From the NCBI RefSeq assembly GCF_000308215.1, contig NZ_CAJE01000004.1:1-64000 (forward strand): a DNA stretch of 64,000 nucleotides, read 5' to 3'. Position numbers and translations under genes: made by a program. This document shows positions 15,747 to 33,578 of the stretch, in pieces (within the stretch, counting starts at the first letter, position 1; every line of letters starts with the position of its first letter). The notes beneath the pieces were generated by a model. The model saw only the letters and a list, made by a program, of their open reading frames with translations, was not told where the DNA came from and did no database searches. Origin of the DNA: Methanomassiliicoccus luminyensis B10. Its GTDB lineage: Archaea; Thermoplasmatota; Thermoplasmata; Methanomassiliicoccales; Methanomassiliicoccaceae.

Positions 15747-15980
15747 CTATGTCGATCTCGCGGTATGGCTTGGCGGTGAACCTGAGGTGGGAGGTCGGGC
15801 GAAATCTCGGGTGGTCCTTGCACGGGTCCAGGACGTTACCCCCCTCTTCTGAACTATGTTCGGGGAAGCGTCCTCCCGGACATACTCCCTTACCGTCTTC
15901 CTATCGCATCCCATGCCTCGAGATATCTGGTTTATCGACATCCCGCTCCGATGCATTTCCTTCATTTCTGACCAGTCCAT
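15747..15980 (-). pseudogene. IS21-type transposase IstA, N-terminal relic
   Basis: The first 37 residues, beginning DWSEMKEMHRSGMSINQIS and CDRKTVREYV, are the helix-turn-helix N-terminus of IS21 IstA. After about residue 45 the frame loses the family pattern. The neighbouring frame then resumes with VLDPCKDHPRFRPTS ... PYREIDIDLRVLW, matching the LDPYKDYI region that normally follows. So the gene carries a frameshift and is truncated. No istB or intact terminal repeats are seen. It marks past insertion next to tRNA-Leu. Confidence 0.75.
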
Positions 15981-16088: not shown

Positions 16089-19000
16089 CTATGTTTTAGA
16101 TACATCATTTAGATGTTGTATCGCCGTAGCCACATCTTTCGATGTCGTGCGGTACGCCTGTATCCTCATCGTGCTCGTCTGCGTTTTCACAATCATGTCC
16201 CCAGCACCAGCTAGGTCTTCCGCTCCCGCTTCGTCCAGTATTACTACCGAGTCACGTGAGGAGGGCAAGCGGAATGCGATCCGGCATGGGAAGTTAGCCT
16301 TGATCTTGCCCGACACGATGTCCGCGGACGGCCTCTGAGTCGATAAGATTATGATGTAGCCGAGGGCGCGGCCGATCTGGGCAAGACGGGTCACAGAGTC
16401 CTCGAATTCATCCTTCCCCTTCGTAAGGGACATGATCAGATCGGCGTACTCGTCGATCATGATGACATGGAACGGCATTTGGGCATTCATCTCACCGGTC
16501 CCTTCTTGTCTCATCTCATAGATCGACGAGTATCCAGAGGACTTCAACATGTTCTGCCGTTTCGGTAGGTCTTCCTCAATTATCTTGCGAAGGAACTCGA
16601 TACAATCAGACGCATTATCAATATAGCCTCCAGCGACTACGTGGGGTAGACTTGCGAGTTTTCGGAAATCGACACCTTTGGGATCCAGGATACTGATCTT
16701 CAAATCGTTCGGAGTCATGGATAAGGCCAGACTGATAATCGTCGTGGTAAGGAAGTTGGATTTACCAGAACCAGTAGTCCCCCCGATTAGAACATGTCTC
16801 TCCTCCGGAAGGCTAAGCAGGCGATGCCGGTTCCTGGTATCGATACCGAGCGGAATCGTAAGGAGTGAAGATATTAGCTTCTCCCCTAGATTTTCAAAGG
16901 CTTCTCTTATCCGGATGTCTCTCGGCTCACCAGTCGGAATGGAGAGCCTTATGGCACCGGACGCGGGCTCGAGGTCCGCCTGTATCTTCCCCTTCGCTTT
17001 TATCGACACGCTCAGGGTATCGAGCGATTTCATTACTTTCTCTACCCTCTGCCCCTCTTTCGGGACGATGTCCACGGACACTCTCCTTGGGCCGATCGTT
17101 ACCGTGGAGGGCGATGGGCTGTATATCTCCACACCCAGCGAGTCGAAACCCCTCTTGAGATCAGCCAATAGTGGTCCGATATCCATCTGCGTTTCCGCAG
17201 GTGGCGACATCTCCAGGAATTCCCATTTCGTAGCTGGAGGGCCATTTAACTTGATAACTGACGATTCTGTCCCGGGCGCTGTTGGAGGGCTCGAGGGAGG
17301 AGCTACCAGCGGTACAGCGAGAACCTGTGCAATCTCTTTGGGTACATCTGAGATGATTTCTTGTGCCTTCACAGCGGGAGATTCTGTCTTCACCGCCACA
17401 TCAGCCACATTGGCAGGAGGAAGTTCTAGCTCGGTAGGCAACTTCACCTCTTCTGGGCGCCTTTCATTCTCCGTAGTCATCTCGTAGCGAATAAGGCTCC
17501 TGATGTCTAGGTCCGGCACCAATTCGTCTAGTTTTTTATTTTTCAACACTTCGATGACCCTTATTGGAGCATGTATGACGCGTACCTGCTCGTCATGTTC
17601 AACACTGGCACTGTTGGTCATTGAGCTGATCTGAACAACCTCTCCATATTGTCCGCTCGACGTCTTGAGACTGTCGAGCTCGTATTCGCCTTCGATGAGG
17701 CGGCGGCCGTGGGCGGAAATGTTGCCCCAATCTTCCTTTGAGATGACTTCATAATGCGCCATGCGTCTAGCCACGTCGACGACAACCCTTCCGAACAATC
17801 CTCGGGCAATCTCAATGTCGGAGTTGCCCTTCGGGGGATCCAGCAGATCGAGTATCTGCCTATGGGCACCGATAACTTGGTCCTTGCCCTTACTTGTCTT
17901 GCTGGTACCACCCTTTGCTTCCACTATCCACAGACGGACCTTGTAGTTGCCTGATGAATCCCGGGGGCAACCGACGAAGCAGAAGTCGTCGCACGCTTCT
18001 CCTGGTGACTGATACTGAAGTATGCCTGAGCCCTCACTGCCGTCTGAATGAGTCTGCCTCACTAGCTCAGAGAGGCTCAGCGGAACCCATATGTGGTCGG
18101 GCATTCCTCTGTTTAACAGGTTCCTGCTAAGGGCGAGGGCGCCGATGAACCCCATGTACTCGACGGCGTACTTCTTGTCGGCCTTCTGCAATTTGAGAGC
18201 TAGCTCTCCATCGATCGATACGAGATTCTTCAGCACAATTTCGGCATCAAGAACATCACTCAAGTGCGAGGTTTGAATGGCGTGATTTAAAGCTGCCAGG
18301 TAGTGATTGCGATGGATGGTGGAGGTTATCACATCGTAGCTGGGCGAGGATGGGTCATATTGGTCGCTGTAGTGGATAATTATTCTAGGATCATTGCGTT
18401 TTCCGGCCCCCGGAACATTCAGGTAGAACTCCAGGCTCACGTTCGGCTGGACGTGGATAACCCAAAGGGAGCCTTCCCAGATGTGACTGAGGTCGCCGGA
18501 GAGGTGCTGAGATTCCACAGTCTGTTTTATGAATGCTCCTCTTTGGAAGGTACGGAATATGCTGCTGGCTTCTAGGGCGTTGGAAGCTCTGGCAACCTCA
18601 ATGACAAGGCCATGGTCATTATCATCCGAACCGAACCCAACGGTATATACTGATCCATCAGTATCCGTTCCCACATCAATGGATTTAGAGGGGTACAAGC
18701 CCTGGCAATACATTCCCGATTTCAGACCGGAATTTTCAGGCTGTCCCCATCCCGGTTTTTCTTTCAGGATGCCTCGAAAGAATGTGATATGGGCCGGCTC
18801 GAGATCTCCTTCATACTCTCCAGCCCTTACATAAGATAAACGCAATAACAGGAGGTCCACGATCTCATCGTCGTACTTCCTCATCTGTGTCCTGAGGCGG
18901 GAGTAAGCGTTGTCGGAAAAGAAGCTGTCAAGCTCTATGCCATCAGAGTAGGGACCATAGATCCTCAGAAGAATCCTTGGGATAGCATGCTTGTTTTCCT

Positions 19001-21419
19001 TTAGAATTTTCTTGAAAAATGTCGATATGCCCTTGATGATGGGCCCTAGGTTCCCCAGGTTCACCAAGTTAATGACCAAAGTACGCTCGGGATGGATGTC
19101 GAAGAGGATCTGGTATGAATTGCAGAAGGACTCCAGTTTGTCGGATATTACTCGCGACATGAAATCGGGCGTGGTTGAGCCAGGCCGATTCACCGCGCTG
19201 TAGACTACCCAGAGGCGGGAAAATTCCTGCGTTCCGCCGGTCAGCACAGAATCTGTCCTGCTGAAGTGACGGAAGGGTAGCAAGCCTGCGGTATTGAACC
19301 GGGCGAGGAAGTGGTCCTCTCTGAACCCCTCTGTGCGCCCATGTGGAAGCAGTTCATTATCTCTCCACTCCACCAGCCGCAGGGCGTAAGCTAGCATAAG
19401 GGGGTGATATGCAGTGACCCAGGATCGATCTAGAGTTCTGGAGTTAATTGTTCCTATAACTGACAGTATTTTTAGAGACGAGGTTTTGTCCACTGCCGTT
19501 AGGTACGCATCGACAACATTTCTGGCTAGCTCCTGTATATCCTCTCCCCATGGATCGGTGGACGGGGTGGTTCCGGAGCATCTGAAATGATTGAATAATG
19601 CCGAATATGCCTGTTTCAAACCATCATCAAGGCTCTGCTCATGTTGCCGTTCGAGCCTAGCCTCTTTCAGCTCCGATCCTTCCACACTTCTGGGAAGTAT
19701 GCTATCCTCCTTGGCTATGAGGTATTCTAGGTTCAACAGTTCGGTAATTTCGTCTGTGAGCCTGAGCTTCCGGCCGTTTGGGATATAGATCTCTCCTCTG
19801 CTGTACTCGACGGTCAGCCCTTTTATCAGTCTAAGCTTCCCATCGGACCAGACTCCGGGAGCAGATATGGCCTGCAACAGGAGTGGAAAAATCACTTCGT
19901 CCCTTTCCTCCTCCCCCCCATCCATGGTGAACAAGATGGGCACCTTGGGCATGTTTTGATGGCCGATATACACTTTGACATTGTCCTTGCCGCCCTTAAC
20001 CTCAGGCTGGATTTCCACGGGTCCGGTTAGGTCTAGGATTTCCTCGTCAACCATAGTAATCTTCTCGAAGACGACCGAACCGCAGGATTGCTGAAGGTCA
20101 TCTAGGGAGATTGGTCCGCTGCCTATACACACCAAGCTCTCGGTTAAAGCGTCGACCTCCAGGGCACAAGCATCAGAAGCGCTGAAGAACCATGGGGGGA
20201 CAAATGCGACCTTGACTTCCTTGTCTGGTTTTCCTTTCGGGGTCAAAGTGGTGGTCCAAATCTGGACCCTATAGAACTTTGGCTCGTTCGGGGGAATACT
20301 CTCGAAGTTTAACTTCAACGACGTCTCCGACTTCTCCATCCTAGGTTTGTAGCCTTTGCTGCCGGTTACACGATGTGAAGAGTTCTTAATCTCTCCCAGG
20401 AACTGAATGTTGATGGTGCTTGCTCCCTCGGAACAAACGATCACCGATATCATTCCACCATCGGTATCGCTGTCGGGAGGAGCATAGAAACGATGCTTCG
20501 AAGATACATCGATCAGTTCGATGCCCACAGGAGGCGTTCGGGTAATGCTCCTTCTAGCCTGGGCATGACCAAGCTGGTGCCACTGGTCCGGATCATTCGC
20601 GACTTGCTCTACGAATTCTTCCGAATAATAAGACGGCAATGTGGAACGCGCGTTCTTTCGCAAGGCCTTCTCGATACGGTCAGCATGGCGAGCGTTATCC
20701 GCCATCATATCTGCGATTGCTTTGTTGAGTTCGTCCTCGCCCCTGCTGTCTCTGAAGAAATCTTCGGTTATGAGGTCTTCACGCAGTAGGCCCGGCAATC
20801 TCCCAATCAAATGAGGTATTTCGTCGGGCTTCTCATCGATGAGTGCCGATCTCAATGAGATCAACGCTTCAGTACTATCCTCGGTCAAAGTGTTTCTGGT
20901 CAAGTAAGGCTTCAGGGCATCTATGAGTATCCTGCACTGGGGTTTCGTGTAGGCAGATACGTCCAGAAGATCGTTGACTATGTTATTCGTATTTAGGACG
21001 CCACCCGGTTTGAAGAGATCTTCGGTTGCCTTTAACGTATCTAGGTCCGAGTCGGTGATTATCACAATTGCCAGTCCTTGATCCCTATAAATGGAGTCAG
21101 CGACATAATCTCGAAGAGCTCCGGCAAAGTTAGAAGTAACCACGTGCAGGGGTGCATCCGTTCCTACTGGTCGTGATGTAGCTCGGACGAAAATAAATTT
21201 TATCCCATTCGAAAGATCGATGCAGGGCAGCATGTATTCGCGATTCTCAATATGGACCCTAACTTGGCTTACCTGGCCCTGGAGGAGGCTTTCGGCAACC
21301 TCATCAGCTAAGGAGGTGCGGGGGAAGCGTGCTAGGAATAGCTGGCCGGCTCGTGGAGGGCTCCCGCTTGCCATGCCTCTGATGCGGCTGGCTAGATGAT
21401 CACTGTAGAGCCCGGACAT
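16089..21419 (-). CDS. dptH: DptH-like FtsK-type translocase (phosphorothioation-dependent restriction family)
   Basis: A 1,776-residue protein from the ATG at 21419; a GTG seven codons upstream is possible. The C-terminal 240 residues are an FtsK/SpoIIIE-type motor. They carry Walker A IGGTTGSGKSNFL (about residue 1545), ILDPKGVDF, Walker B MIDEYADL (about 1660), sensor STQRPSADIVSG, and the conserved DEAGAEDLAGAGDM segment. The long N-terminal part is beta-rich, with one region (LRLWIVEAKGG-like, in KVRLWIVEAKGGTSKT) that resembles a nuclease-type E-x-K strand. A Pro-rich linker joins them. Size, motor position and the DptF-DptG gene order match DptH. No phosphorothioate-writing genes are nearby, so its DNA signal is unknown. 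Confidence 0.75.
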   Translation of the reverse strand: MSGLYSDHLASRIRGMASGSPPRAGQLFLARFPRTSLADEVAESLLQGQVSQVRVHIENREYMLPCIDLSNGIKFIFVRATSRPVGTDAPLHVVTSNFAGALRDYVADSIYRDQGLAIVIITDSDLDTLKATEDLFKPGGVLNTNNIVNDLLDVSAYTKPQCRILIDALKPYLTRNTLTEDSTEALISLRSALIDEKPDEIPHLIGRLPGLLREDLITEDFFRDSRGEDELNKAIADMMADNARHADRIEKALRKNARSTLPSYYSEEFVEQVANDPDQWHQLGHAQARRSITRTPPVGIELIDVSSKHRFYAPPDSDTDGGMISVIVCSEGASTINIQFLGEIKNSSHRVTGSKGYKPRMEKSETSLKLNFESIPPNEPKFYRVQIWTTTLTPKGKPDKEVKVAFVPPWFFSASDACALEVDALTESLVCIGSGPISLDDLQQSCGSVVFEKITMVDEEILDLTGPVEIQPEVKGGKDNVKVYIGHQNMPKVPILFTMDGGEEERDEVIFPLLLQAISAPGVWSDGKLRLIKGLTVEYSRGEIYIPNGRKLRLTDEITELLNLEYLIAKEDSILPRSVEGSELKEARLERQHEQSLDDGLKQAYSALFNHFRCSGTTPSTDPWGEDIQELARNVVDAYLTAVDKTSSLKILSVIGTINSRTLDRSWVTAYHPLMLAYALRLVEWRDNELLPHGRTEGFREDHFLARFNTAGLLPFRHFSRTDSVLTGGTQEFSRLWVVYSAVNRPGSTTPDFMSRVISDKLESFCNSYQILFDIHPERTLVINLVNLGNLGPIIKGISTFFKKILKENKHAIPRILLRIYGPYSDGIELDSFFSDNAYSRLRTQMRKYDDEIVDLLLLRLSYVRAGEYEGDLEPAHITFFRGILKEKPGWGQPENSGLKSGMYCQGLYPSKSIDVGTDTDGSVYTVGFGSDDNDHGLVIEVARASNALEASSIFRTFQRGAFIKQTVESQHLSGDLSHIWEGSLWVIHVQPNVSLEFYLNVPGAGKRNDPRIIIHYSDQYDPSSPSYDVITSTIHRNHYLAALNHAIQTSHLSDVLDAEIVLKNLVSIDGELALKLQKADKKYAVEYMGFIGALALSRNLLNRGMPDHIWVPLSLSELVRQTHSDGSEGSGILQYQSPGEACDDFCFVGCPRDSSGNYKVRLWIVEAKGGTSKTSKGKDQVIGAHRQILDLLDPPKGNSDIEIARGLFGRVVVDVARRMAHYEVISKEDWGNISAHGRRLIEGEYELDSLKTSSGQYGEVVQISSMTNSASVEHDEQVRVIHAPIRVIEVLKNKKLDELVPDLDIRSLIRYEMTTENERRPEEVKLPTELELPPANVADVAVKTESPAVKAQEIISDVPKEIAQVLAVPLVAPPSSPPTAPGTESSVIKLNGPPATKWEFLEMSPPAETQMDIGPLLADLKRGFDSLGVEIYSPSPSTVTIGPRRVSVDIVPKEGQRVEKVMKSLDTLSVSIKAKGKIQADLEPASGAIRLSIPTGEPRDIRIREAFENLGEKLISSLLTIPLGIDTRNRHRLLSLPEERHVLIGGTTGSGKSNFLTTTIISLALSMTPNDLKISILDPKGVDFRKLASLPHVVAGGYIDNASDCIEFLRKIIEEDLPKRQNMLKSSGYSSIYEMRQEGTGEMNAQMPFHVIMIDEYADLIMSLTKGKDEFEDSVTRLAQIGRALGYIIILSTQRPSADIVSGKIKANFPCRIAFRLPSSRDSVVILDEAGAEDLAGAGDMIVKTQTSTMRIQAYRTTSKDVATAIQHLNDVSKT

Positions 21420-22824
21420 AGATCGACTCCCCGCTGTCACTTTGCTTTTCTATCATACCTAATGCCTCAAGCTTACTCAGGACTACGGACTGTGACTCCT
21501 CGTCCAACTTCATGCCTCTGTATTGGAGAAACTGAACAAACTCAGCATAACTGCCAGACAGGCCCTTATGCATATTGAATATCTTGGCAAAGAAGATGAT
21601 GGCCGGCGTGTCCAGGCGCAACGTCACTCCGACTTTGTTTTGTCTCCGTATAAACTGCTTGCTGCTGCCATTTCCGAGTTGAAAGACAACGTTGATGCCC
21701 ATGGTTGCAGGGCTCTGGAGGCTCGGCTGCTTGCTCTCATAGTGTTTTGTTACCTCAGTCGCTAACTGCCAAGATAACTCTCCTATGTCTTCAGAGGACG
21801 ATCGGACATCGAAGCGATTGAGGGCATCAATAAGTCCATTTTTTACAGCAGTATGGATAGTCACATCCGGTAGATCGGTTGCCTCACTCAGAGTGTTAGA
21901 ATATTTGGCCCATCTAGCCGACCTTGCGGAATCGGAAACAACCCTTAGAGCAACCAACCTTCCCCAGCTGTCAAATAGCTCCCTCTCCAGACCATTTCTT
22001 CCCTCCCAGCTACGTGCAAATTCTCTATTCTGAGAGGCGGCTTCATCCCACTCGCCGAAATGCATCGGGATCAACTCGGCCCGATATTTCTTGCCATTGC
22101 GCACTGCCTCGAACTCCTGATGTACATTTCTGGAGAATTGTACTATCGACATCATCATGTAGTAACTAAGCAGGTCGCTGACGCCTTGCAGCCACCTCGA
22201 CGATGATTCGATGTTGTAATTAATCCAGCATTCCAGATCCTCCTGGAAACACAGAGACAATTGCTCAACATATGGCCTTATCGGGGTTGTGTCTATACTG
22301 GCGACCTTTTCATAACCGACCACGCCAGCAGCCTCGACCGCAATCTTTTCCAACAAGTTTGAAGGGGCTAGATCTCTGAGCCTAGCGACAAATTTGTCAT
22401 GGAGATGGCCATTGAATGTTGGCGGATCTCCGCTCGACATTAGCATGATGTACCATTTTCCGAAAGGACGGCTCTCTTTGGGTTTCATTGCCTTTGCGAT
22501 CTCGGGGTGGAACGGCACGACGTAACGCTTGGGATCCTTTCCTCGGGCTCCCCGCTCTCCAGTAATTGTGTATGAGGCCACAAACGCGGCCCATAGTAGC
22601 TCCGCTGCTTCCGGACTATCAGTCATATAACTTAGGCTCATGAATGCGTCCTTTAGTTGGCTGATGTCCTTTCCCCGCGGCCGAGCCCCCAGTATCTCCG
22701 CCAGGAAGTCAGAAAAGATGGCTTCCCTGGTGGTTGCAGCAGGCGAGGAGGGGAAGAAAGCATCCGCTATGACTCTGTCCAGAGGTGGGTCGGATCTTTT
22801 CGCGGGCATGAGAGTTTCGTCCAT
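21400..22824 (-). CDS. dptG: DptG-like protein
   Basis: A 474-residue protein with no catalytic motif. It is predicted mostly helical and ends in a winged-helix-like segment: FVQFLQYRGMKLDEESQSVVLSKLEALGMIEKQSDSGES then a YVRAL end. That tail is characteristic of DptG, the middle component of the DptFGH restriction trio. It starts nine bases after the DptF gene and overlaps the DptH start by about 20 bases, so the three are one translational unit. Probably a scaffold or adaptor between the DptF ATPase and the DptH motor (inference). Confidence 0.72.
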   Translation of the reverse strand: MDETLMPAKRSDPPLDRVIADAFFPSSPAATTREAIFSDFLAEILGARPRGKDISQLKDAFMSLSYMTDSPEAAELLWAAFVASYTITGERGARGKDPKRYVVPFHPEIAKAMKPKESRPFGKWYIMLMSSGDPPTFNGHLHDKFVARLRDLAPSNLLEKIAVEAAGVVGYEKVASIDTTPIRPYVEQLSLCFQEDLECWINYNIESSSRWLQGVSDLLSYYMMMSIVQFSRNVHQEFEAVRNGKKYRAELIPMHFGEWDEAASQNREFARSWEGRNGLERELFDSWGRLVALRVVSDSARSARWAKYSNTLSEATDLPDVTIHTAVKNGLIDALNRFDVRSSSEDIGELSWQLATEVTKHYESKQPSLQSPATMGINVVFQLGNGSSKQFIRRQNKVGVTLRLDTPAIIFFAKIFNMHKGLSGSYAEFVQFLQYRGMKLDEESQSVVLSKLEALGMIEKQSDSGESIYVRALQ

Positions 22825-22833
22825 ATTCTCACC

Positions 22834-24552
22834 TTATTCTATCCTTATGGTGTCAAACTCGTCCACCTTGATGACAACACCGTGGTCGCCATCTTTCTTA
22901 ACGACCCTGACGAAATCATTCTTAGCCGTGAAGTCTGATAATCTCGATGCAATCAGCTGGATGCCCTCGGATCTATTCAGGTCAATGCTGCTGGGATTGT
23001 AACCCTTGATGACCTTTTGCATCAATAGATAGATGTCAAATGTGAGCGGTATGGCTATCTCTCTGCCTCCCTGGCTCCGGAGTTCCAGTACCACCCAGAC
23101 CATGCCGATAGTATGCGATTCCTTTGTTTTTTGGGCAGATTTTCTAAGCGAGAATGTGGGAGCTTCCCATCTCGACATAAACTCATATTCTGGCGTTTTA
23201 TATCCGTCTGAAAATTTCACCAGGTGGCTCTCATCCACTGAACCAGCCCAGCATCTCAGGGCAGTTTTAAGGGTATCATTGACATTGCTTGCTGCTCCCT
23301 TGTATTGATCCATATCGTATCTGAGCAGGCAATAGAGGCTGATGAACTCCCTGAACTCTTTGGACTCGATAGCAGTATCGTTCGGATCGTTGCCAGTTAG
23401 GTACTTCTGGCGGAGGAGGGTTGAAATGAACACTTCCTGCCTCTCTTTTTTACTAGTTTTAATTAGGCCATTAATGTCCTGCATTTTCTTTCTCAGCTCC
23501 TTCGGTGAAGAAGCCAGGTCTAAGATCCAAAAGTCGAGTGAAAAGTTCACTTGGGCAGTGGGATCTATGAGCCCTGCTAGGGATGCGTTAGCTGTCGTTT
23601 CGTTGTCGAACAGAGCATTCCATAAAATATGTTCAGGCCCGACCTTTTGCTTGGCACCCTCGCCGCTCTGGCAAAGCGGGCATCGTCCGTCGACGACTTC
23701 CATGTGCCTTAGCCATGGGTGGAGCAGTATGGATGAGACCTGATGGATTATCAGCCTTGGATTGAGGTGAGTATTTGTGATTAGGCTACGCGCAGCCAGC
23801 ACTCGGGCCACTCGTTTCCGGACAGTCGGGTCTGTAAACTTGGAGGCGTTGTAATAAAGTATGCACCCAGACTCATCCTTGCAGCTTTCCTTCTCCTTCT
23901 GATATGCATCATGGAATGGGGAGTTTGGATTAGAAAAATCGAATTTATTTATGATGTCAAGCAGGAATCCTTCACCCATATGGTCCGGGCGAACGTCGAA
24001 CATATCTCTCCTGCTCAGGTTGATAATGACCATATTGTCCAGTTCGGCGGACTCCTTGGTCCTGACTTCGTTTATGGCATCCCATATGGCTGGAAACCTA
24101 TTCTTATAGCCTCTCGTCTCGAAGAAGTTGATGGCCAGCCCCAGGTTTATTGCGAAAGCGTTACGCGGTCCCTGCCTGTTGACGAAGTTCTCCAAAGCAA
24201 CCTCTAAGAAATTGTTTAGCGTGATGTCGTATTGTTCATGGGGATTGAACGAGGCGGTGGCATCGAGATGCACTTTGGGCAGGGGAGTCACTCCCGATGC
24301 CTTTGCCCTCTTGGTCCAATTCATGAGTAGGGCACTTTTCCCATCCCCTGCGCTTCCTAATATTATCAATAATTTACCGTCTGGTTTGTAATCGTCCACG
24401 AAAAATGTTCTAACTATCTTATCGAGGTTGGTCTCCACATAGAGGCCCTCTCGCATCGGATCTGATTCCTCGGAACCACCAACTATGAGGCCCGCTTCTC
24501 CCAACTGGCAGTTCCTCAATTGTTCGTACAATGTAAGGTTGTTTGCTCCCAT
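22834..24552 (-). CDS. dptF: DptF-like P-loop ATPase
   Basis: A 572-residue protein with Walker A LIILGSAGDGKSALL (about residue 61) and the Walker B-like MVIINLSRRDMFD. The unusual GSAGDGKS loop is typical of DptF. A Cys pair (CKDESGC) and a CPLC motif followed by EHILWNALFDNE are further DptF-type signs. The C-terminus is beta-rich (RVVKKDGDHGVVIKVDEFDTIRI). It is the first gene of the dpt trio, 153 bases downstream of the AddA-like gene. In known systems DptF-H attack DNA that lacks the phosphorothioate mark. Confidence 0.75.
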   Translation of the reverse strand: MGANNLTLYEQLRNCQLGEAGLIVGGSEESDPMREGLYVETNLDKIVRTFFVDDYKPDGKLLIILGSAGDGKSALLMNWTKRAKASGVTPLPKVHLDATASFNPHEQYDITLNNFLEVALENFVNRQGPRNAFAINLGLAINFFETRGYKNRFPAIWDAINEVRTKESAELDNMVIINLSRRDMFDVRPDHMGEGFLLDIINKFDFSNPNSPFHDAYQKEKESCKDESGCILYYNASKFTDPTVRKRVARVLAARSLITNTHLNPRLIIHQVSSILLHPWLRHMEVVDGRCPLCQSGEGAKQKVGPEHILWNALFDNETTANASLAGLIDPTAQVNFSLDFWILDLASSPKELRKKMQDINGLIKTSKKERQEVFISTLLRQKYLTGNDPNDTAIESKEFREFISLYCLLRYDMDQYKGAASNVNDTLKTALRCWAGSVDESHLVKFSDGYKTPEYEFMSRWEAPTFSLRKSAQKTKESHTIGMVWVVLELRSQGGREIAIPLTFDIYLLMQKVIKGYNPSSIDLNRSEGIQLIASRLSDFTAKNDFVRVVKKDGDHGVVIKVDEFDTIRIE

Positions 24553-24705
24553 CCATCAACCATCCATCACATTTATCCGCATTGTGTTCTAAGACTTAAC
24601 TTTTATCAGATTATTTAGGCGATGCCAGTGGCAATTTCCACTTATTTCCTCTTCAATCAGTGATTCCCTTATGATGGTCCCCTGATTCTGAGTGGAAAGC
24701 TACGT

Positions 24706-27700
24706 TTATGCCACCGAATCGATCGTCGTATTCGGTCCCACTTCAGTTTCCTCGTCCATCTTCTCCGAGCTCGATTCGAAAGGTACCTCCCGCACCATCT
24801 CGTTCCCGGTGAAGTAGAGGAACAGCCTAGGTTTCATGCCCACAATACCCTCAACCGCGCGGCCGTAGTCCTGGAGCTGCTTTGCGTAGCGCCCCACGTA
24901 CTCGCCGATATTGGCCTTAGTCGGTGTCCCAGTCTTGAAGTCGATCAGGCTGTAGCTGCCATCCGTGTTCTCGACCAGCAGGTCCATCCGTCCGTTCACC
25001 CTCTGGTCCTTTTTCATCATCTGGAACGATATCTCGGGATGAGTCCTAGCAGCGTTCTTCATCAGGTCTGAGGCGAAGAAGCGGTCCCTCTGCGCCTCGA
25101 TCTTGCGGGCCATCTCCTCATCAACCACGCCGTGTTCCTTCAGCACCACGCGGGCCGGGCGGCCCTGGAACACCGCGTGGACGACGAGGCCCCGGGTGCG
25201 GCTGTCGGAGAGATCATCCCACCCGTGCCAATCAAGCTCCGGCCGGCCGTTTAGGCGCATTATCCCGCCCTCCCGGGAATGCGACCTGGATGGGGACAGA
25301 TCCTCCTCGATCTCCACAGCCTTAGAGGCAGGCCTCTCGGGCATTGATCTCAGCGCGCCCGGGACGCGGCGCTCCTCCGGCGCTCTCTTCTTCAAGCCTC
25401 TCTCCGGCTCGTGCACCTGGATCCCGAACCAAGTCTTGTTACCACAGGAATCGGCAAGTTCCATCCCACCCGCGGCCACAGCATCCGCCTTCACATCCAG
25501 GCTGCGCAGCAGGTAGTGGAGCCAGCAGTTGCCGCCGCATCTCTCTTCCACCTTCTCCGGATCTTTGCAATATGCCGTCATGACCAAGCGATCCATCGCC
25601 CTGGTGGCGGCGACATAGAACAGCCGGCGGTTTTCCGCCTCATGCTTGGCGTCACCCACCTTCTTCATCCGCTCCATAGCCGCGTTAGGTTGCTTGTCCA
25701 TGGTCCTGGGGTCCGTGAGCTGCACTCCGATGCCCATATGCCGATCCACCTCTATGCGCTCATAGTTCGCGGACCGCTCCCTATCGATTTCCGGCACGAT
25801 GACGATGGGGAACTCCAGCCCCTTGGCCGCGTGCACGGTCATGATGTGGACAGCGTTGGCATCGTCATTCTCGATCTGGGCCTCGCCCTCCCGCGCCTCC
25901 CCCCAGATGTTCTCTTCGAGATCCGAAACAACATCATGGAGCGTGATGAATCCGGTCGACTGCCTCGATCTAACGCGTTGCTGGAGTTTCTCCAAGTTGG
26001 CGATCATCTCGTCTCCCTGAGTGAGGCCGCCGTAAACGGCGTAGATGCCGCTCTCGGAAATGACCCTCATCAGCAGGTCCGCCACCGGCTCCCATCGAGC
26101 ATAGTGGAGCCACCTCTCCAGGCGGACGCAGGCGGCATTAGCCCTCGCGTCCGTTGCCCCCTCCCTCTTCAGCCTAGAGAACCACGGCCCCCGCCGCCCG
26201 TTGCCGATGCGAAACAGCTCCTCCTCGTTGAACCCGAAGTAAGGAGATCTAAGTAGGCCGTAGAGGGCGGCGTCATCGCTGCGGTCCAGCAGGAACCGCA
26301 GCAGCTGATAGGCATCGATCACCTCCCTTTGGGAATAGTAGCCCTGCCCCCGGTGGACGCGGTATGGGATGCCAGCCTTCTTCAGAGCCTGCTCGAAGTG
26401 GGGCAAGTTGGTCCTGGCCCGCATCAGGATGGTGATGTCCGAGAACCGCGCCGCCCTGCCCTCTTCCAGGCGCTCCCCCTGCTCATCATGATATACGACA
26501 TCTCCCTGGTCCACGATGTTCCTGATGAGCTTCGCCACCATCTCGCCCTCGGCCACTTTGCGGTCATCGCCGTTCTCGGTGTCGGTCAGAAGGTGTAGCT
26601 CCACAGCGCCTCGGTCATTCCTCCTGTGGTCGCTCACGGAGACCGGCTCATATTTGAAATCCCAAGCGTTGGCCTCGCTGGAAAAGAGGCGGCTGAACAG
26701 AGAATTAACGAAGCATATGATGTCTGGAGTGCTGCGATAATTTATATTCAGGGCCCGATGGGTCCCGCCCATCTCCTCGACATACCTGCGGGCGTCTTTG
26801 AACAGGGCGACGTCGGCCTCGCGAAACAGGTAGATGGATTGTTTCGGGTCGCCGACCACGAAAAGCCGGTGGCATGGCCGTTCATCGCCTATGATGGCCT
26901 TGATGATCTCCAGCTGCAGGACGTCAGTGTCCTGCATCTCGTCCACCAGGACGTAGCGGTACCTGGAGCCCAGGCGGCGGGCGAACTCCTTGTCCCCGGT
27001 GACCTGGTCCCGCATCATGATTAGCATGTCCTCGAAGTCCAGGGCATTGCGCTCGTCCTTTCTCCTCTGGACCATTCGGGCAAAAGCATCGCTCACCACA
27101 TCAAGGGAGATGAGAAACTCGCCGACTCGGCTCCCCAGGGCGGGATTGTCGCGGGTCCTGGCGAGATCGTAGCCCGAGGACTCGAACCCCTCCTTCAGCG
27201 AAGCTATCGAATGGTTAAGCATCTCCTTCTCTTCAGTGGTGAACACATCTTTAGAGCCTATGCCGCTTCTGCTGCCCCGCACGATGCGATGCACCTCGGC
27301 CAGTGCCTCCTCGGGCTTCAGCTCTGAGGATAGCGAACTCAGAGGCTTCCTGAGTTCGATGAGCACTTCGCTCCCTTTGTCCGTGCCCAGGTTTGGCTTG
27401 GCAGCGAGGTCTTTGAGAGTGTGCAGTGAGTTGGCAAAGTCATCGTTCCTAGCCAAAGCGCCGATAGCGCTGGTAAGAAGCTCGGTACACACCTTTTTCG
27501 TCAGCTCGTCCAAACCTCCCTGGCAGGCCTGCTTGAACAAGGGACCCGTGATGTGCCTCGATTTGTAGATGGACGGGAGGTTCTCTTCCAAACGCCAGCC
27601 TTCAACCTCCGTCATCACGTCAAGCAGAGCCTTCCTCACCGACTGGTCCTCTGTTCGCATCAGGTCTTCGAAGGCACTCTCCATCAGGGCCCTGGACCCC

Positions 27701-28053
27701 CCCTCCTCCAGCAGGACGAAATCTGGATTGACTCCTGTCTCCAGGGGATTGTCCCTCAGCACCTGAGCGCAGAAGGAGTGAAAGGTCATGATGGTCGACC
27801 AGTTGAAGTCCTCCAGGGCCTCTTCGGACCCATGGCTCAGCTTGGACAGCTCCTTCCTGATCTTCTCCTTCATGGATGCGGCGGCCTTGTCTGTAAAAGT
27901 CAGCGCAAGGATGCTGGATGAAGTCTTCGTCTTATCCAGCAGTTTCAGGTATTTGGCGGCCAGCGTGGTGGTCTTGCCGGTCCCCGCTCCCGCTGAAACG
28001 CATTGGGAGGCCTCACAGTCCAGCGTATCTTTCTGGCGCCCCGCGAGATTCAT
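24706..28053 (-). CDS. AddA-like UvrD helicase fused to PD-(D/E)XK nuclease
   Basis: A 1,115-residue superfamily 1 helicase-nuclease. The helicase motifs are intact: Q-motif LAGRQKDTLD, Walker A VSAGAGTGKTTT (about residue 27), motif II VDEMQDTDVLQ, motif III GDPKQSIYLFREAD, motif V TVHAAKGLEFPIVIVPE and motif VI YVAATRAMDRLV. The C-terminal RecB-family nuclease shows GRMDLLVENTDGSYSLIDFKTGT (the D...D-x-K site), then YAKQLQDYGRAV. This is the domain order of AddA, a recombination enzyme of bacteria that degrades and processes double-strand ends. It overlaps its AddB-like partner by ATGA. Archaea normally use HerA-NurA, so acquisition and a defence use are likely. Confidence 0.88.
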   Translation of the reverse strand: MNLAGRQKDTLDCEASQCVSAGAGTGKTTTLAAKYLKLLDKTKTSSSILALTFTDKAAASMKEKIRKELSKLSHGSEEALEDFNWSTIMTFHSFCAQVLRDNPLETGVNPDFVLLEEGGSRALMESAFEDLMRTEDQSVRKALLDVMTEVEGWRLEENLPSIYKSRHITGPLFKQACQGGLDELTKKVCTELLTSAIGALARNDDFANSLHTLKDLAAKPNLGTDKGSEVLIELRKPLSSLSSELKPEEALAEVHRIVRGSRSGIGSKDVFTTEEKEMLNHSIASLKEGFESSGYDLARTRDNPALGSRVGEFLISLDVVSDAFARMVQRRKDERNALDFEDMLIMMRDQVTGDKEFARRLGSRYRYVLVDEMQDTDVLQLEIIKAIIGDERPCHRLFVVGDPKQSIYLFREADVALFKDARRYVEEMGGTHRALNINYRSTPDIICFVNSLFSRLFSSEANAWDFKYEPVSVSDHRRNDRGAVELHLLTDTENGDDRKVAEGEMVAKLIRNIVDQGDVVYHDEQGERLEEGRAARFSDITILMRARTNLPHFEQALKKAGIPYRVHRGQGYYSQREVIDAYQLLRFLLDRSDDAALYGLLRSPYFGFNEEELFRIGNGRRGPWFSRLKREGATDARANAACVRLERWLHYARWEPVADLLMRVISESGIYAVYGGLTQGDEMIANLEKLQQRVRSRQSTGFITLHDVVSDLEENIWGEAREGEAQIENDDANAVHIMTVHAAKGLEFPIVIVPEIDRERSANYERIEVDRHMGIGVQLTDPRTMDKQPNAAMERMKKVGDAKHEAENRRLFYVAATRAMDRLVMTAYCKDPEKVEERCGGNCWLHYLLRSLDVKADAVAAGGMELADSCGNKTWFGIQVHEPERGLKKRAPEERRVPGALRSMPERPASKAVEIEEDLSPSRSHSREGGIMRLNGRPELDWHGWDDLSDSRTRGLVVHAVFQGRPARVVLKEHGVVDEEMARKIEAQRDRFFASDLMKNAARTHPEISFQMMKKDQRVNGRMDLLVENTDGSYSLIDFKTGTPTKANIGEYVGRYAKQLQDYGRAVEGIVGMKPRLFLYFTGNEMVREVPFESSSEKMDEETEVGPNTTIDSVA

Positions 28054-31000
28054 TCGCCACCCTCCTCATATTCTTCGGCATCGATTGCGACAGGGGATTC
28101 GTCCCGTTCGCCACCTGCCATATCCAGCAGGCGGGAGCTGTCGAAGCGGCATAGGCAGTAGTAGTCGCATGACGGGCCACACTCCCGGCCCATGCCTGCC
28201 CGCCCATTATGGCTGAGGCTGAACTTCCCGCTCTCGATATCCTCGACCAGGGTCGCCACTCTCTTCCTCGCCGCGTCCATCTGTTCGACGAAGGGCGGCA
28301 GCCCCTCGATGCGGCCCTTCAGGTGCGCCACTTCGGGAGCGTTGAAGTCCAGTATCGAGGGGACCATGCGCGCCGTCCCTGAAGTGGTGAGCACGTAGTA
28401 TCCGCCCCCGATTGATTTCATGCCGGGGTTCGACGCCTCCATGGCCATAATGTAAAGCGGGATCTGCAGGTCTTCAGCCGCGTCGGGCCTACTTACTGAG
28501 CCAGTCTTGTAGTCGATGACGAAGAAGCGGCCGTCCGCGGCCGCGTCCACCCGATCGATCCGCCCGGCAAGATTGATGAATGACGCCCCATCGCCTCTGA
28601 GGGGCACTCTGACATGATGCTGTTGATCATCATCAGTCGGAGCTATCCAGTGCTCCAGAAAGAGTGGGTTCATCCCATTGAGCCCCTTCTTTACTTCCCT
28701 CTCAATGAAGATGGCCAGGGCGCCTCTCACCGGGCCGAAGCCCACCAGACGGTTCAGCGAAGCCCTCAACCGCTGGCTTTCCCACTCGGCGGTCTGCTCC
28801 AGGGCGATTGCCCTAATCTTTTCCAGTGCTTCTGCCTCCTCCGGCGCGGTGACCCTGCCCTTCCCGGACGCAATCCGCTCAGAGTAGAACTTCTCCAGTA
28901 TCGAGTGAACCTTGGATCCGATGATCATGACGTCCCTGCTGACCGATTTCCCCTGCAGCATCATGACGTACTTCAGGTAGTACTGGAACGGGCAGTAGGA
29001 GTATGTGCAGATCTGGCTGGGAGAATACGTTTTGCCCTCATGAATGAGCTTGAGCGCTTCGACCACGTCCTGGGCTTCCATGATGCCGTCGTACGCGCTG
29101 CGATACGTTCCCCTCCTGTAAATTTCCTCCATGTTGATGCAACGGCAGGCGGCCTCGATGGCTTCAAGGCCGATATGCTCGGTGAGATTGTGGTCCTGCA
29201 AAGTGATCGCCCTGCCGACCTGGCGCTGCGTCTCCAACAGCGAGTGGAGGTCAGGAGAGACTTCCAGTTCAGTCGTTCGAAGCGCATCCTGAACCGCCTT
29301 GAGGAATGGGGAGGCCAGGGCGGTCTTGTCCCGATCGGAGTTGTGGTGAGAGAGATAAATATGCCCGGTGCTAGACAGGAGCGCGCTCAGGAAGTAGTAT
29401 TTCTCCTGCCTCAGCAGCTCGCGGTCCACCAGCACGCCCATCCGCTCGACCTCCTCGGGAGTGGCGAACGGATAGCTCACATGGATCCTCGGAAGGTCGC
29501 CGTCCACCATGGCCGGGATGAAGACGTGCTTCCTCTCTACCAGCTGGCCGGCACGAAGGCCGGTGACCTCGATCGCACCGGCGCCCGCTCTCTCCGGAAT
29601 GTACGTCTCGGAGACAACCTGGGTTCGGTGGATCTCCACGAATTCGTCGAGGGAGAGCAACTGATCGCTCAGCACCATGCTGCCCCGCCCGAGTTCATTG
29701 AGCAGGCCCGAGTACAGAGCGAGCGCGCGGCGCTCACGCTCGGCGATTCTCTTGTCGTCGAGCCGGTCCAACTCCGCCCCGATCTTCATTTGCTTGAGCA
29801 CGTTTCTCAGCGAACTCACGTGCTGGAAAAGGGTCTTTTTGCCCTCCAAAACCTCAAGGGTTTTGACGAGCGTCCGCACCCCCTCGTGAGCACTGCGGAC
29901 CTGCAGGCTGGCAGAAACGTCAATGGTCGGCAGCGTGTCATCCCGGTCGGGGTCCGGCACCGTTCGAGGCAGGTCGGAGAGAAGCTCATCCTTTCCCACA
30001 CTGGCCGACAGTACTTGTGCCAGCTCCCGGACGTCCCAGGAATGCAGGAGCTTCCTCCGCCCCTCGAAGTCGAAGTAGTGCTTGATCAGGGGGAGGGACA
30101 GAAGGTCGATGATGTCCTTGGTCCGGTAACCGTTTTGCACTACCGACAACAGGTCGAAGATTGCTTGGATCGACGGGGATTCAGAGAAGCCAACCCCTAT
30201 GCTGAAGCTGGCAGGGATGCCGTGGTCGGCCATGACCTCCCGGACCATCGGCGCGAACTTCTCCCTCATGGGAAGCAGCACCGATATCGAGGAGGGGTCC
30301 TCGCCCTCATCCAGCAGTCGCCTGATGTTGGCGGCCATCTGGCGCAGCTCGGTGAGGGGGTTGGCGTAACTGGAGGCGTATACGGTCACTGCGTCCTGGG
30401 ACTCCTTCTTTCCGCAGAAGACGCCGACCATGGCCTTGTCCCGTTCATCGAGATCGATCGCAATCTCTGAAGATGGCGTGAGCCAGGATATGTCCTCAGC
30501 GAACACGGGATGGCCGGGGATATGAATCTGGTAGTAAGTAGCGTCGGGACACGCCTGGCACAGCGCGGTGATCATCTCCCTCTCTGACGGCGTCGGAGCG
30601 AACAGGCCGAAGAAGAACAGCTTGCGGGTTTCCTTGACTCCATGCTCGCGAATATCTCCGATAGCCCAGTCCAGGACGCCCCGCTGATCCAGCACATCAA
30701 GTTCGCCAAGCTCGCGGCGATACTCGGATAGAATGAACGCCAGCTGGTTCGATTTTGCCGATTGAAGCTCGCCCAGGACGGCCGGGTAATCGACTCGATA
30801 GTCGCCAAGGGTGGAGATGAACGCGTGTATGGAATGGACCAGACCCAGGCGGGGCCGGCCGTCCCTGTAGAATAGGGGCAGTTCCTCGGGATGATTTACA
30901 ACGATCTTCCGGATCAACAGTTGCGATTCCAGATCAGAGATGACGGGCTTAGCCCTCGGGGACGAACTCATTCTCTCGTCAGCCAGCTGGCGCAGGGTGA

Positions 31001-31181
31001 GCGCAACAGAGCTTCGGATCGCCGCGGCGTCGCCCATTATCTTCGAGCGGGTGTGATCTGCCAGGGCCGAGGTGGGCACGATGGCCCTGGTTCCGAACTT
31101 GTCGACAGCATATGCTGTCGACAGCTCATTCAAGAAGTGTCCCATGCATCCGCGGGGGCTTCCTCTCACCACCACGACCAT
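28050..31181 (-). CDS. AddB-like helicase-nuclease subunit (Fe-S, PD-(D/E)XK)
   Basis: A 1,043-residue partner of the AddA-like protein. The N-terminal helicase-like region starts VVVVRGSPRGCMGHFL and lacks a good Walker A Lys, as in inactivated subunits. Helicase relics such as VTGLRAGQLVERKHVFIPAM and VYASSYANPLTELRQMAANI follow. The C-terminal RecB-type nuclease keeps FFVIDYKTGS and LQIPLYIMAM. An AddB-type iron-sulphur staple is suggested by ICTYSYCPFQYYLKYV before the nuclease and a final CGPSCDYYCLCRF after it. It lies 68 bases downstream of the SNF2-type gene on the same strand. Confidence 0.82.
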   Translation of the reverse strand: MVVVVRGSPRGCMGHFLNELSTAYAVDKFGTRAIVPTSALADHTRSKIMGDAAAIRSSVALTLRQLADERMSSSPRAKPVISDLESQLLIRKIVVNHPEELPLFYRDGRPRLGLVHSIHAFISTLGDYRVDYPAVLGELQSAKSNQLAFILSEYRRELGELDVLDQRGVLDWAIGDIREHGVKETRKLFFFGLFAPTPSEREMITALCQACPDATYYQIHIPGHPVFAEDISWLTPSSEIAIDLDERDKAMVGVFCGKKESQDAVTVYASSYANPLTELRQMAANIRRLLDEGEDPSSISVLLPMREKFAPMVREVMADHGIPASFSIGVGFSESPSIQAIFDLLSVVQNGYRTKDIIDLLSLPLIKHYFDFEGRRKLLHSWDVRELAQVLSASVGKDELLSDLPRTVPDPDRDDTLPTIDVSASLQVRSAHEGVRTLVKTLEVLEGKKTLFQHVSSLRNVLKQMKIGAELDRLDDKRIAERERRALALYSGLLNELGRGSMVLSDQLLSLDEFVEIHRTQVVSETYIPERAGAGAIEVTGLRAGQLVERKHVFIPAMVDGDLPRIHVSYPFATPEEVERMGVLVDRELLRQEKYYFLSALLSSTGHIYLSHHNSDRDKTALASPFLKAVQDALRTTELEVSPDLHSLLETQRQVGRAITLQDHNLTEHIGLEAIEAACRCINMEEIYRRGTYRSAYDGIMEAQDVVEALKLIHEGKTYSPSQICTYSYCPFQYYLKYVMMLQGKSVSRDVMIIGSKVHSILEKFYSERIASGKGRVTAPEEAEALEKIRAIALEQTAEWESQRLRASLNRLVGFGPVRGALAIFIEREVKKGLNGMNPLFLEHWIAPTDDDQQHHVRVPLRGDGASFINLAGRIDRVDAAADGRFFVIDYKTGSVSRPDAAEDLQIPLYIMAMEASNPGMKSIGGGYYVLTTSGTARMVPSILDFNAPEVAHLKGRIEGLPPFVEQMDAARKRVATLVEDIESGKFSLSHNGRAGMGRECGPSCDYYCLCRFDSSRLLDMAGGERDESPVAIDAEEYEEGGE

Positions 31182-31249
31182 TATCCACCCACTGCCGTCG
31201 AATTGCCCTCCTTGTTGATATTGATATCTTCAGTGTTCATTCTTGTGAC

Positions 31250-33232
31250 TCATCTCGTTTTGTGGTTCATGGGTCGCCTGACTGGCCCCTTGTTGCCGCT
31301 GTCTTCTAACGTCCGCTCGATCTCCTCATCAAAGGCCTCGTCAGCGCTCCGGAGGACCTCCAGGCCGCCGATCCCCCTGCGGCCGAGGAACTCTCCGATC
31401 CTCCGGACCGCCTCTATGCTGTCCTCGGCGTCTAGCTCGTCGATGCCCTCGGTCAGGAGAGCGGGAAGTTCACCCACGGAACGGTCAGCGGTACGGGACA
31501 CTGCCTGGAGCATCCGATGGATGCCCTCGTCGACCGATCCCGACGTTACGAGATCGACCACATGGACGACGTCATCGGCCTGGCCGACCCGGTCTACCCT
31601 GCCTATGCGCCGCTCGATCTTCCGGGGGTCGTAGGGCAGATCGTAGTTGACGATGCAGTTGGCCGTCCGGAGGTCCGCTCCCTCGGACAGGATGTCGGTG
31701 GCCAGGAGCACGCAGAACCCCTCGTGCTCCTGGAATCGCCTCATCTCTGAGATCTGCACCTCCTCATCCTCCTCCCCCGAAGCGGCGAACAGCTTGTAGC
31801 CCTCTCCGTCCGATCGGCCGCAGAGGTACCGGTACGTGGGAAGCCACTGCGTGAATATGATGATCTTCTTCGCCGCCCCGGATGCCCTGAGGTCCTCGAT
31901 GGCCTTGTGGAGCACATCCCATTTGCTGTCGGCCCCGAGCCCCCTCAGGCGATCGGTGATGTTCCTGCACCGATCCGCGGTCGCGCCGCTCACCGACGAC
32001 TCGACCGAAGTGATCCCCTCCCCGCTGCAGAACCCGAAGCGCGCCATGCCGTCATCGAGCAGGCCCGCCATGGCAGGCATCGACGAGCTCAGCTGCCTCC
32101 TGTGAAGATGGGTGAACTCCTCGGCGAACAGCCGGTCAAGCTCCCGAAAGATGCCCCGCTCGGTCGCGTCAGGCGTCGATGCGGCCGAGCTCAGATCGCC
32201 GTCGCTCATCTTGACCTCGAGGTCCAGGAACTCCCTCCGCCTCATTTCTCCGACCTCCTCCCGCCTCGTCATGGTCATGAGGGGATAGAGAAAGCTCAGC
32301 CGGCCGAGGACCACCCGCAGACGGGCTACATCAGGATCGGAGGGCCATCGTTCGGCCATCGTTCCGAGCTCGCGCGAGATGGCATCCTCGCCACCGGGCC
32401 CGGCCGCGGCGGCTTCCTTCGCGATCTCCGATGCCTCACCGATAATGCCCCTCGCCTCCAAAGCCGGGATGTCATCTCCCCTGAGCCTCTCGGCCAGCCT
32501 GCTCAGCCGGGCAGTACTGCGCATCTCCCTCTTGAACGCCGCATAGGGCAGCCTGCCGGGATCGATGGCCTCGATGATCTGGAAGAGGTCATCGTCCTCC
32601 AGGCGGTCCGGGGACACGGATATGCCCACCACTTTCCTGGAGCGGCCGGACAGCTCCATGCAGGCTTTTCTCCTCCGAGCCCCTTCCTCGCCCCAGGCGA
32701 CATTGTGCACCTCGTCGATCACCAGGAGGTCGAGGTCCGGCCCGGCGGCGGGGGCTAGGCAATCGAGGTTGGCCTCCATGGAATCGAGGGACACGATGTG
32801 CCTGAACTGCCGCTCCTTGTCAGCGATATCTCTCATCGCCTCGGCCCCGCTCACCACGTTGAAGGAGAGGCCGAACCTGCTCTCCATCTCGCTCCTCCAT
32901 TTGTGCATCAGATGCGAGGGGCACGCCACCAGCAGCCTGGCGGCGCTGTTCCTCAGGACCTCGTCCAGGATGATGCAGCCTGCCTCCACGGTCTTCCCCA
33001 GGCCGGTCTCGTCGGCGATGAGCAGACGGCCGTCCGATCTGGTGAACTTGAGCAGCGGACGGAGCTGATACGGCCTGAAGAAAGTTCTGCGACGGAGCGG
33101 CCCGGAGGGCGCATCGTCACCGCTCGCGCTCACATGGTCGAGAACGGCTCTGATCATGCCAGTCCCGCTGGCATTATCAGCCTTCCTCGGCGAGATATCG
33201 TGGCGAGGCGCTCCGTTCTGCTGTCCGGGCAT
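31250..33232 (-). CDS. SNF2/RapA-family DEAD-like ATPase
   Basis: A 660-residue superfamily 2 motor. Motif I is LLIADETGLGKTVEAG (about residue 70), motif II VIDEVH instead of DEAH, a third motif ISVSP in place of the usual TATP, motif IV KIIIFTQWLPTYRYL, motif V LLATDILSEGADLRTA and motif VI ERRIGRVDRVGQ. This last form is typical of SNF2/RapA translocases. There is no nuclease or methylase domain. It starts one base after the stop of a small upstream gene and heads the Add-Dpt run, so a role in remodelling or moving along target DNA is likely. Confidence 0.85.
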   Translation of the reverse strand: MPGQQNGAPRHDISPRKADNASGTGMIRAVLDHVSASGDDAPSGPLRRRTFFRPYQLRPLLKFTRSDGRLLIADETGLGKTVEAGCIILDEVLRNSAARLLVACPSHLMHKWRSEMESRFGLSFNVVSGAEAMRDIADKERQFRHIVSLDSMEANLDCLAPAAGPDLDLLVIDEVHNVAWGEEGARRRKACMELSGRSRKVVGISVSPDRLEDDDLFQIIEAIDPGRLPYAAFKREMRSTARLSRLAERLRGDDIPALEARGIIGEASEIAKEAAAAGPGGEDAISRELGTMAERWPSDPDVARLRVVLGRLSFLYPLMTMTRREEVGEMRRREFLDLEVKMSDGDLSSAASTPDATERGIFRELDRLFAEEFTHLHRRQLSSSMPAMAGLLDDGMARFGFCSGEGITSVESSVSGATADRCRNITDRLRGLGADSKWDVLHKAIEDLRASGAAKKIIIFTQWLPTYRYLCGRSDGEGYKLFAASGEEDEEVQISEMRRFQEHEGFCVLLATDILSEGADLRTANCIVNYDLPYDPRKIERRIGRVDRVGQADDVVHVVDLVTSGSVDEGIHRMLQAVSRTADRSVGELPALLTEGIDELDAEDSIEAVRRIGEFLGRRGIGGLEVLRSADEAFDEEIERTLEDSGNKGPVRRPMNHKTR

Positions 33233-33233
33233 C

Positions 33234-33506
33234 TCAACGCGCCTCCCGGTCGGATGATGCTGTTCCGATGTACCAACTGAGCAGCTCAGCGGGGCAGTGC
33301 TCCTCGGGAGCGGCCCCTGCGGTCCTCGCCGCCCCGTGCCGGGGCTGGCGCCTCTTCCTGGTGAAGCGTTCAGGCTTCAGGCGCTCCTCCATGACAGGCC
33401 TGATGCCCTGGCCCCACGCATACTCATAGATGGTCTGGTTCGTCACTGCCGGTACATCCCCGTTCGAGATCAGGTACTGGGTCATGCGGTCTATCTGCGG
33501 TGTCAT
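33234..33506 (-). CDS. Small hypothetical protein heading the SNF2-Add-Dpt run
   Basis: A 90-residue protein from the ATG at 33506; a TTG at 33563 would add 19 residues but lies inside the promoter palindrome. Sequence MTPQIDRMTQYLISNGDVP ... TNQTIYEYAWGQGIRPVM suggests a helical, perhaps HTH-like, N-terminus, then a very basic stretch (KPERFTRKRRQPRH) and a C-terminal CPAELLSWYIG. It is directly joined to the SNF2 gene with a 1-base gap, so it is likely a subunit or adaptor. Family not recognised. Confidence 0.55.
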   Translation of the reverse strand: MTPQIDRMTQYLISNGDVPAVTNQTIYEYAWGQGIRPVMEERLKPERFTRKRRQPRHGAARTAGAAPEEHCPAELLSWYIGTASSDREAR

Positions 33507-33539
33507 CGGACCGAGAGCCGCACGTCGATACAAAATCAT

Positions 33540-33562
33540 TATAACGTTATATTTGTTATACA
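33540..33562. promoter_or_regulatory. Divergent promoter with 12-bp palindrome (SNF2-Add-Dpt versus CARF regulator)
   Basis: TATAACGTTATA at 33540-33551 is a perfect palindrome lying between the two divergent starts. It merges into TATTTGTTATAC, which gives TATA elements for both directions: one about 25-30 bases before the ATG at 33579, the other about 35 bases before the ATG at 33506. Placement over both TATA boxes makes it a natural operator for the CARF-wHTH protein encoded beside it (inference). Confidence 0.55.
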
Positions 33563-33578
33563 AGTGACGACGGTTATT

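Follow-up and report, generated by a model that had tools for sequence, protein, structure and literature searches.

A DptFGH trio without DndC adjoins an AddBA-SNF2 gene cluster in Methanomassiliicoccus luminyensis

DptF, DptG, and DptH form a DNA-cutting defence trio that normally depends on a sulfur mark on host DNA. The bacterial complex, DndFGH, is a translocating nickase (PMC11662687). Among 5228 Dnd-bearing taxa, 7% hold all eight dnd genes, and DndFGH, which is often uncoupled from DndABCDE, has been proposed to act as a stand-alone counter-invader system, archaea included (Rakesh, Aravind and Krishnan 2024, PMC10853773). An orphan DndFGH is therefore not anomalous, and DptFGH as a stand-alone defence system without phosphorothioate (PT) genes has already been described (PMC10853773). 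However, DndFGH without PT is harmful to its host in Salmonella (PMC11662687), so a mark-free DptFGH would need another brake, and self-protection becomes the main difficulty.

We analyzed the first 64 kb of contig C4 (hereafter, the window) from the genome of the archaeon M. luminyensis B10 (G000; 2,620,233 bases in 26 contigs, rated 99.7% complete). In the ORF list, seven genes run head to tail on the minus strand from 33506 to 16089 and encode a small protein, an SNF2 ATPase, AddB, AddA, DptF, DptG, and DptH (Table 1). This is the order given in a preliminary description of the locus, as are the intergenic gaps of 1, 68, -4, 153, and 9 bases. The 20-base overlap that it placed between DptG and DptH holds if DptH begins at Met8 (21419), a start position kept in an alignment of orthologues, but not with the GTG of the longest ORF (21440). 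Directly behind DptH lies a weakly matching transposase-type remnant, which we take to resemble the start of IS21 IstA. We rejected a tRNA-Leu as an attachment site, as its 3' end has no second copy within the 64-kb window.

Table 1. Features of the locus in window coordinates
Feature	Coordinates	Strand	Basis or remarks
Transposase-type helix-turn-helix remnant, directly behind DptH	15840..15980	-	Weak HTH_7 and related matches, best E 2e-4, under cut-offs
DptH, restriction nuclease with C-terminal HerA/FtsK translocase	16089..21419	-	TIGR03237, 250 bits
DptG	21400..22824	-	TIGR03236, 48 bits (cut-off 20)
DptF, P-loop protein	22834..24552	-	TIGR03238, 112 bits (cut-off 50)
AddA-DptF gap, module boundary	24553..24705	-	153 bases; GC ~60% upstream, ~50% downstream
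AddA-like helicase-nuclease subunit	24706..28053	-	UvrD domains; addA_Gpos, 355 bits
AddB-like nuclease subunit	28050..31181	-	PDDEXK_1, 113 bits; AddB families
SNF2-type SF2 ATPase, 660 aa, DrmD/RapA-like	31250..33232	-	PF00176, PF00271
90-aa protein, no assigned fold, basic-rich around residues 60-75	33234..33506	-	ORF kept in relatives
Operator-like site CATTATAACGTTATATTTGTTATA, 24 bp with 12-bp palindrome, between divergent regulator and small-protein genes	33537..33560	.	Kept at same place in G002
CARF-like (HFX_2341_N) and winged-helix (DUF6293_C) regulator, divergent from operon	33576..34502	+	PF19810, 65.2 bits; PF22665, 30.3 bits; both over cut-off

The island holds further genes beyond the regulator. 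A zinc-dependent phospholipase C-like protein (34647-35753) lies between the regulator and a gene for a PLD-domain protein (36265-37119), and 38917-42069 encodes a ResIII helicase that has both PLD and DUF3427 domains. The PLD protein and the helicase are probably a further defence unit. The product of 37539-38855 is a coiled-coil protein with a possibly nuclease-like C-terminal part; two related genomes have homologues of 54-56% identity close to AddBA (L043:722-2203 and L129:5492-6973).

Profile searches and full-length homologues identified the trio as genuine, divergent DptFGH, as the preliminary description had proposed. Haloarchaea encode full-length homologues of all three proteins, mostly 31-44% identical outside the FtsK domain of DptH, which is better conserved than the rest of the trio; identity to the window proteins is 34-44% for DptF and 37-44% for DptG. 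DptF has the Walker A motif GSAGDGKS, and that of the FtsK domain in DptH is GTTGSGKS. DptH scored below the TIGR03237 equivalog cut-off (250 versus 620 bits), yet the model aligned over residues 51-1270. The protein is divergent, but its position in the gene order and its predicted domains fit DptH, and its C-terminal FtsK/HerA domain resembles that of FtsK structures. Conserved residues comprise E1125, D1151/D1152, and E1174-x-K1176. Of these, D1151, D1152, E1174, and K1176, which are expected of a PD-(D/E)XK nuclease, were invariant in six DptH proteins, one from Bacillota. None of the six has the methylase catalytic motif [SDN]PP[FYW], which DndH likewise lacks (PMC10853773). An AlphaFold2 (AF2) model of DptG, for which three winged helices would be expected, was of low confidence (mean pLDDT, 46). 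Thus, the trio shares with the described stand-alone DndFGH its three genes, their order, the lack of PT genes, intact restriction endonuclease and HerA/FtsK motifs, and the missing methylase motif. Unlike that system, it stands behind AddBA and SNF2 genes and is accompanied by a CARF-type regulator; the main text of PMC10853773 names neither AddA nor RecB.

If the locus were an ordinary Dnd phosphorothioation system, of which DptFGH is the restriction arm, its modification genes would have to lie elsewhere in the genome, an option that the preliminary description had entertained. DptF and DptG, which score over their curated cut-offs, suit this explanation. However, a PF01507 search, which found proteins in 14 of 14 control genomes, returned two matches in the nearly complete host genome: a long archaeal PAPS-reductase/ferredoxin protein and a second, similar frame of 656 aa. 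Neither scored above 26.6 bits with the DndC model, whose cut-off is 290. As neither search found a DndC/SspD-type sulfurtransferase in the host genome, the reported absence of dnd modification was borne out for these proteins. The locus is therefore not a PT system: without DndC there is no mark, and we rejected this explanation as extremely improbable. DndC was also not found in three haloarchaeal genomes that carry the same type of DptFGH.

Instead of a sulfur mark, DptFGH could read DNA methylation. The island was said to lack any other modification enzyme, and none was recognised among its scanned ORFs, but two PF01555 N4/N6 DNA methyltransferases are encoded elsewhere in the genome (G000:C23:19837-20550 and G000:C20:28170-28922). 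Both are apparently orphans in housekeeping surroundings. In favour of a restriction system guarded by one of them, neither enzyme has an evident nuclease partner, and DndH holds a degenerate Dam-type domain (PMC10853773). In addition, D12 adenine methylases with an intact DPPY motif occur directly beside haloarchaeal DptFGH, together with an HSP90-type ATPase, in L004, G731, and G749, with 52-88% identity among them. In Halorhabdus, both genes lie near a wrecked DptH. We recorded the D12 methylase and HSP90-type ATPase in four haloarchaea at L004:15942-19870, L058:9703-12564, L060:11531-14347, and L134:1785-4632. These arrangements may represent a methylation-coupled DptFGH system. However, D12 methylase was not found in the host or in Halorarius and Natronomonas, all of which have DptFGH, and the two haloarchaeal genomes indicate that D12 is not a general requirement. 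Moreover, neither host methyltransferase is near the island, and nothing links either one to DptFGH. We therefore regard methylation-guarded restriction as an unlikely account of this locus.

Upstream of the trio, AddA and AddB resemble the two-subunit AddAB helicase-nuclease. Their genes are adjacent, AddA contains a UvrD helicase, and each subunit has a PD-(D/E)XK nuclease, with the motif DFKT at residue 1038 of AddA and DYKT at residue 890 of AddB. In comparison with the Bacillus subtilis AddAB structure, AddA gave a strong match (3u44_A, E 8e-61) and AddB a weak one (3u44_B, E 8e-6). The AddA and AddB equivalog cut-offs were not reached, but the nearest family of AddA is AddA itself. No second AddB was found in the host genome, and window AddB is 17-29% identical to the other archaeal AddB proteins in our alignment. 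Unlike described AddAB, the window pair is archaeal, divergent, and accompanied by SNF2, a small protein, and a CARF-type regulator. The SNF2 ATPase bears a likeness to DrmD of DISARM, but at 197 bits it missed the NCBIfam DrmD cut-off of 610. We also did not recognise DrmA, DrmB, DrmC, or the DISARM methylase among the scanned ORFs of the island, and DISARM was rejected.

From the head-to-tail order and short gaps, the preliminary description concluded that the seven genes look like one functional unit and offered a dedicated defence machine as its second option. Composition speaks against this. GC3 is 0.78 for the small protein, 0.83 for SNF2, 0.76 for AddB, and 0.78 for AddA, with 0.81 for pooled flanking ORFs; it is 0.57 for DptF, 0.57 for DptG, and 0.59 for DptH. 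Codon-usage distance to flanking ORFs is 0.06-0.07 for SNF2, AddB, and AddA versus 0.13-0.17 for DptFGH. The switch falls at 24.6 kb, exactly between AddA and DptF.

The phylogenetic evidence also points to two histories. In trees of AddA and AddB, the window pair sits on a long branch and groups, at 95-100 support, with the AddAB pairs of its own order, apart from haloarchaeal AddAB, but the nearest DptFGH that we found is haloarchaeal. Six genomes of the same order encode full-length AddB relatives, as do at least six others in the phylum, and all are paired with AddA. These pairs (at least 12 in Thermoplasmatota) have neither DptFGH nor SNF2 upstream. DptF was found in none of the 389 other Thermoplasmatota genomes sampled (1 of 390 with the host). 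Of 393 Halobacteriota genomes, 3 have DptF, in each case without SNF2-AddB-AddA upstream. Across these two sets, scanned for DptF, the seven-gene order thus occurs in one genome only and is not conserved in archaea. DptFGH and SNF2-AddBA are of separate origins, and a seven-gene machine that evolved as one unit is very improbable. Relatives of DptF, AddB, and the small protein were not found in viral contigs by a method that reaches mainly close relatives. In one relative (G027, L048:2082-5339), a different SNF2 ATPase of 1085 aa lies directly downstream of AddA, so the association of SNF2 with AddBA is not confined to the window. We rejected the helicase-AddB-AddA order of Haloferax lucentense (L131) as the same SNF2 unit: the order is equal, but the helicase is PbeA-like and has no significant match to window SNF2 (E 0.14).

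The small protein belongs with the divergent regulator. In G002 and G863, its homologues (62% identity across 64 aa and 48% across 54 aa, respectively) are divergent from an HFX_2341/DUF6293 gene and have AddA as neighbour, as in the window. This arrangement rules it out as a trio-specific component and speaks further against a single seven-gene unit. A profile search of the small protein gave no family match, and its AF2 model was too poor to use (pLDDT, 51). The ORF of the regulator opens at 33297, but the gene truly begins farther downstream. The regulator is 58-60% identical to its homologue in G002 and 54% identical to one in G006. It has the same two Pfam domains as HFX_2341, a Haloferax mediterranei repressor of cas genes that is similar to the CARF regulator Csa3a (PMC11434293); unlike HFX_2341, it is divergent from a helicase-nuclease operon. 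With 3 mismatches allowed, the operator-like site had one match in the window and none in 100 shuffles. The CARF-like protein, a probable regulator, may bind this candidate site and would thereby control the operon.

AddBA and DptFGH are also linked in a second archaeon. In Halorarius litoreus, DptFGH is followed by one opposite-strand HNH gene, which lies between DptH and AddB, and then by an AddB-AddA pair of a different, haloarchaeal type. Given that the two AddBA pairs are unlike, either the linkage has two origins or AddBA was swapped, although two cases are suggestive only. On haloarchaeal plasmids (L130-L143), AddB-AddA adjoins varied defence modules (BREX, Hma-like, MADS-like, and others), as if it were an interchangeable accessory. 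Neighbours include BrxA/BrxC in L132, BrxL in L140, and Hma-like genes in L136 and L137. In a small sample judged by eye from annotation and not blind, recognisable defence genes were present in about 5 of 6 AddBA stretches; six control stretches, cut from fixed positions on six of these plasmids, had them in 1-2 cases.

It is possible that the two modules are neighbours only, with AddBA (and SNF2) serving recombination or repair, DptFGH acting as an independent defence, and their common strand reflecting an accident of insertion. The difference in composition would be expected, as would the Thermoplasmatota AddBA pairs that lack DptFGH. In relatives, AddBA pairs also often adjoin genes of metabolism, FolE2 and PRPP synthetase among them, as expected of ordinary repair enzymes. 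The lone AddB of the host and the many haloarchaeal DptFGH loci (most of those found) with no AddBA nearby point the same way. Against this stand the shared strand and 153-base gap, the Halorarius case, in which DptFGH is linked to another type of AddBA, and the patchy occurrence of AddBA within the order together with its recurrence beside defence modules. On balance, we consider mere proximity somewhat unlikely.

We favor the interpretation, at a probability of roughly one-half, that this is a composite defence locus in which a stand-alone DptFGH was recruited beside an archaeal AddBA accessory module, with AddBA degrading what DptFGH cuts. The older part would consist of the AddB-AddA helicase-nuclease with the small protein, the SNF2 motor, and the divergent CARF-like winged-helix regulator; a complete trio of foreign composition would later have been placed behind addA, perhaps cotranscribed across the 153-base gap. 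Nicks give rise to broken ends, on which AddAB-type enzymes naturally act, and SNF2 motors travel along DNA or strip it. Since DndFGH nicks DNA (PMC11662687), AddAB acts on broken ends, and SNF2 moves along DNA, joint action of the two modules in defence is plausible. An infection signal sensed by the CARF-like protein would alter transcription from the shared promoter region at 33.5 kb. DptFGH would then translocate on invading DNA and nick or cut it without a PT mark, the SNF2 motor would clear or remodel protein-bound DNA, and AddBA would degrade the broken ends. Host DNA might be spared because the system is silent in uninfected cells, with the regulator as the way to keep DptFGH and AddBA quiet; alternatively, the two orphan methyltransferases could mark host DNA, or the invader itself could be recognised, as proposed in PMC10853773.

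The composite reading retains from the preliminary description that DptFGH is genuine, is an orphan, and neighbours AddAB-like and SNF2 genes in an island where no modification genes were recognised; it gives up the single unit. As had also been stated there, we found no described system with this gene set in the published literature. Nevertheless, the locus is a novel arrangement of known modules rather than a categorically new system. What is new is the gene combination, the probable regulator, the second DptFGH/AddBA linkage in Halorarius, and the D12 methylase and HSP90-type ATPase beside several haloarchaeal DptFGH loci.

The locus bears on how DndFGH spares host DNA without PT genes, since gene content rules out the PT route here. 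It also supplies separately testable candidates for a partner (AddBA), a regulator, and an operator. The haloarchaeal arrangement of D12 methylase, HSP90-type ATPase, and DptFGH offers a second, independent route to the question of whether the complex recognises a mark and, if so, which one. More speculatively, and with considerable doubt, archaeal DptFGH might be a mark-agnostic core that is coupled to a D12 methylase and HSP90-type ATPase in haloarchaea or, without a modification gene, to AddBA; the M. luminyensis locus would then be a modification-free version switched by a CARF-type sensor.
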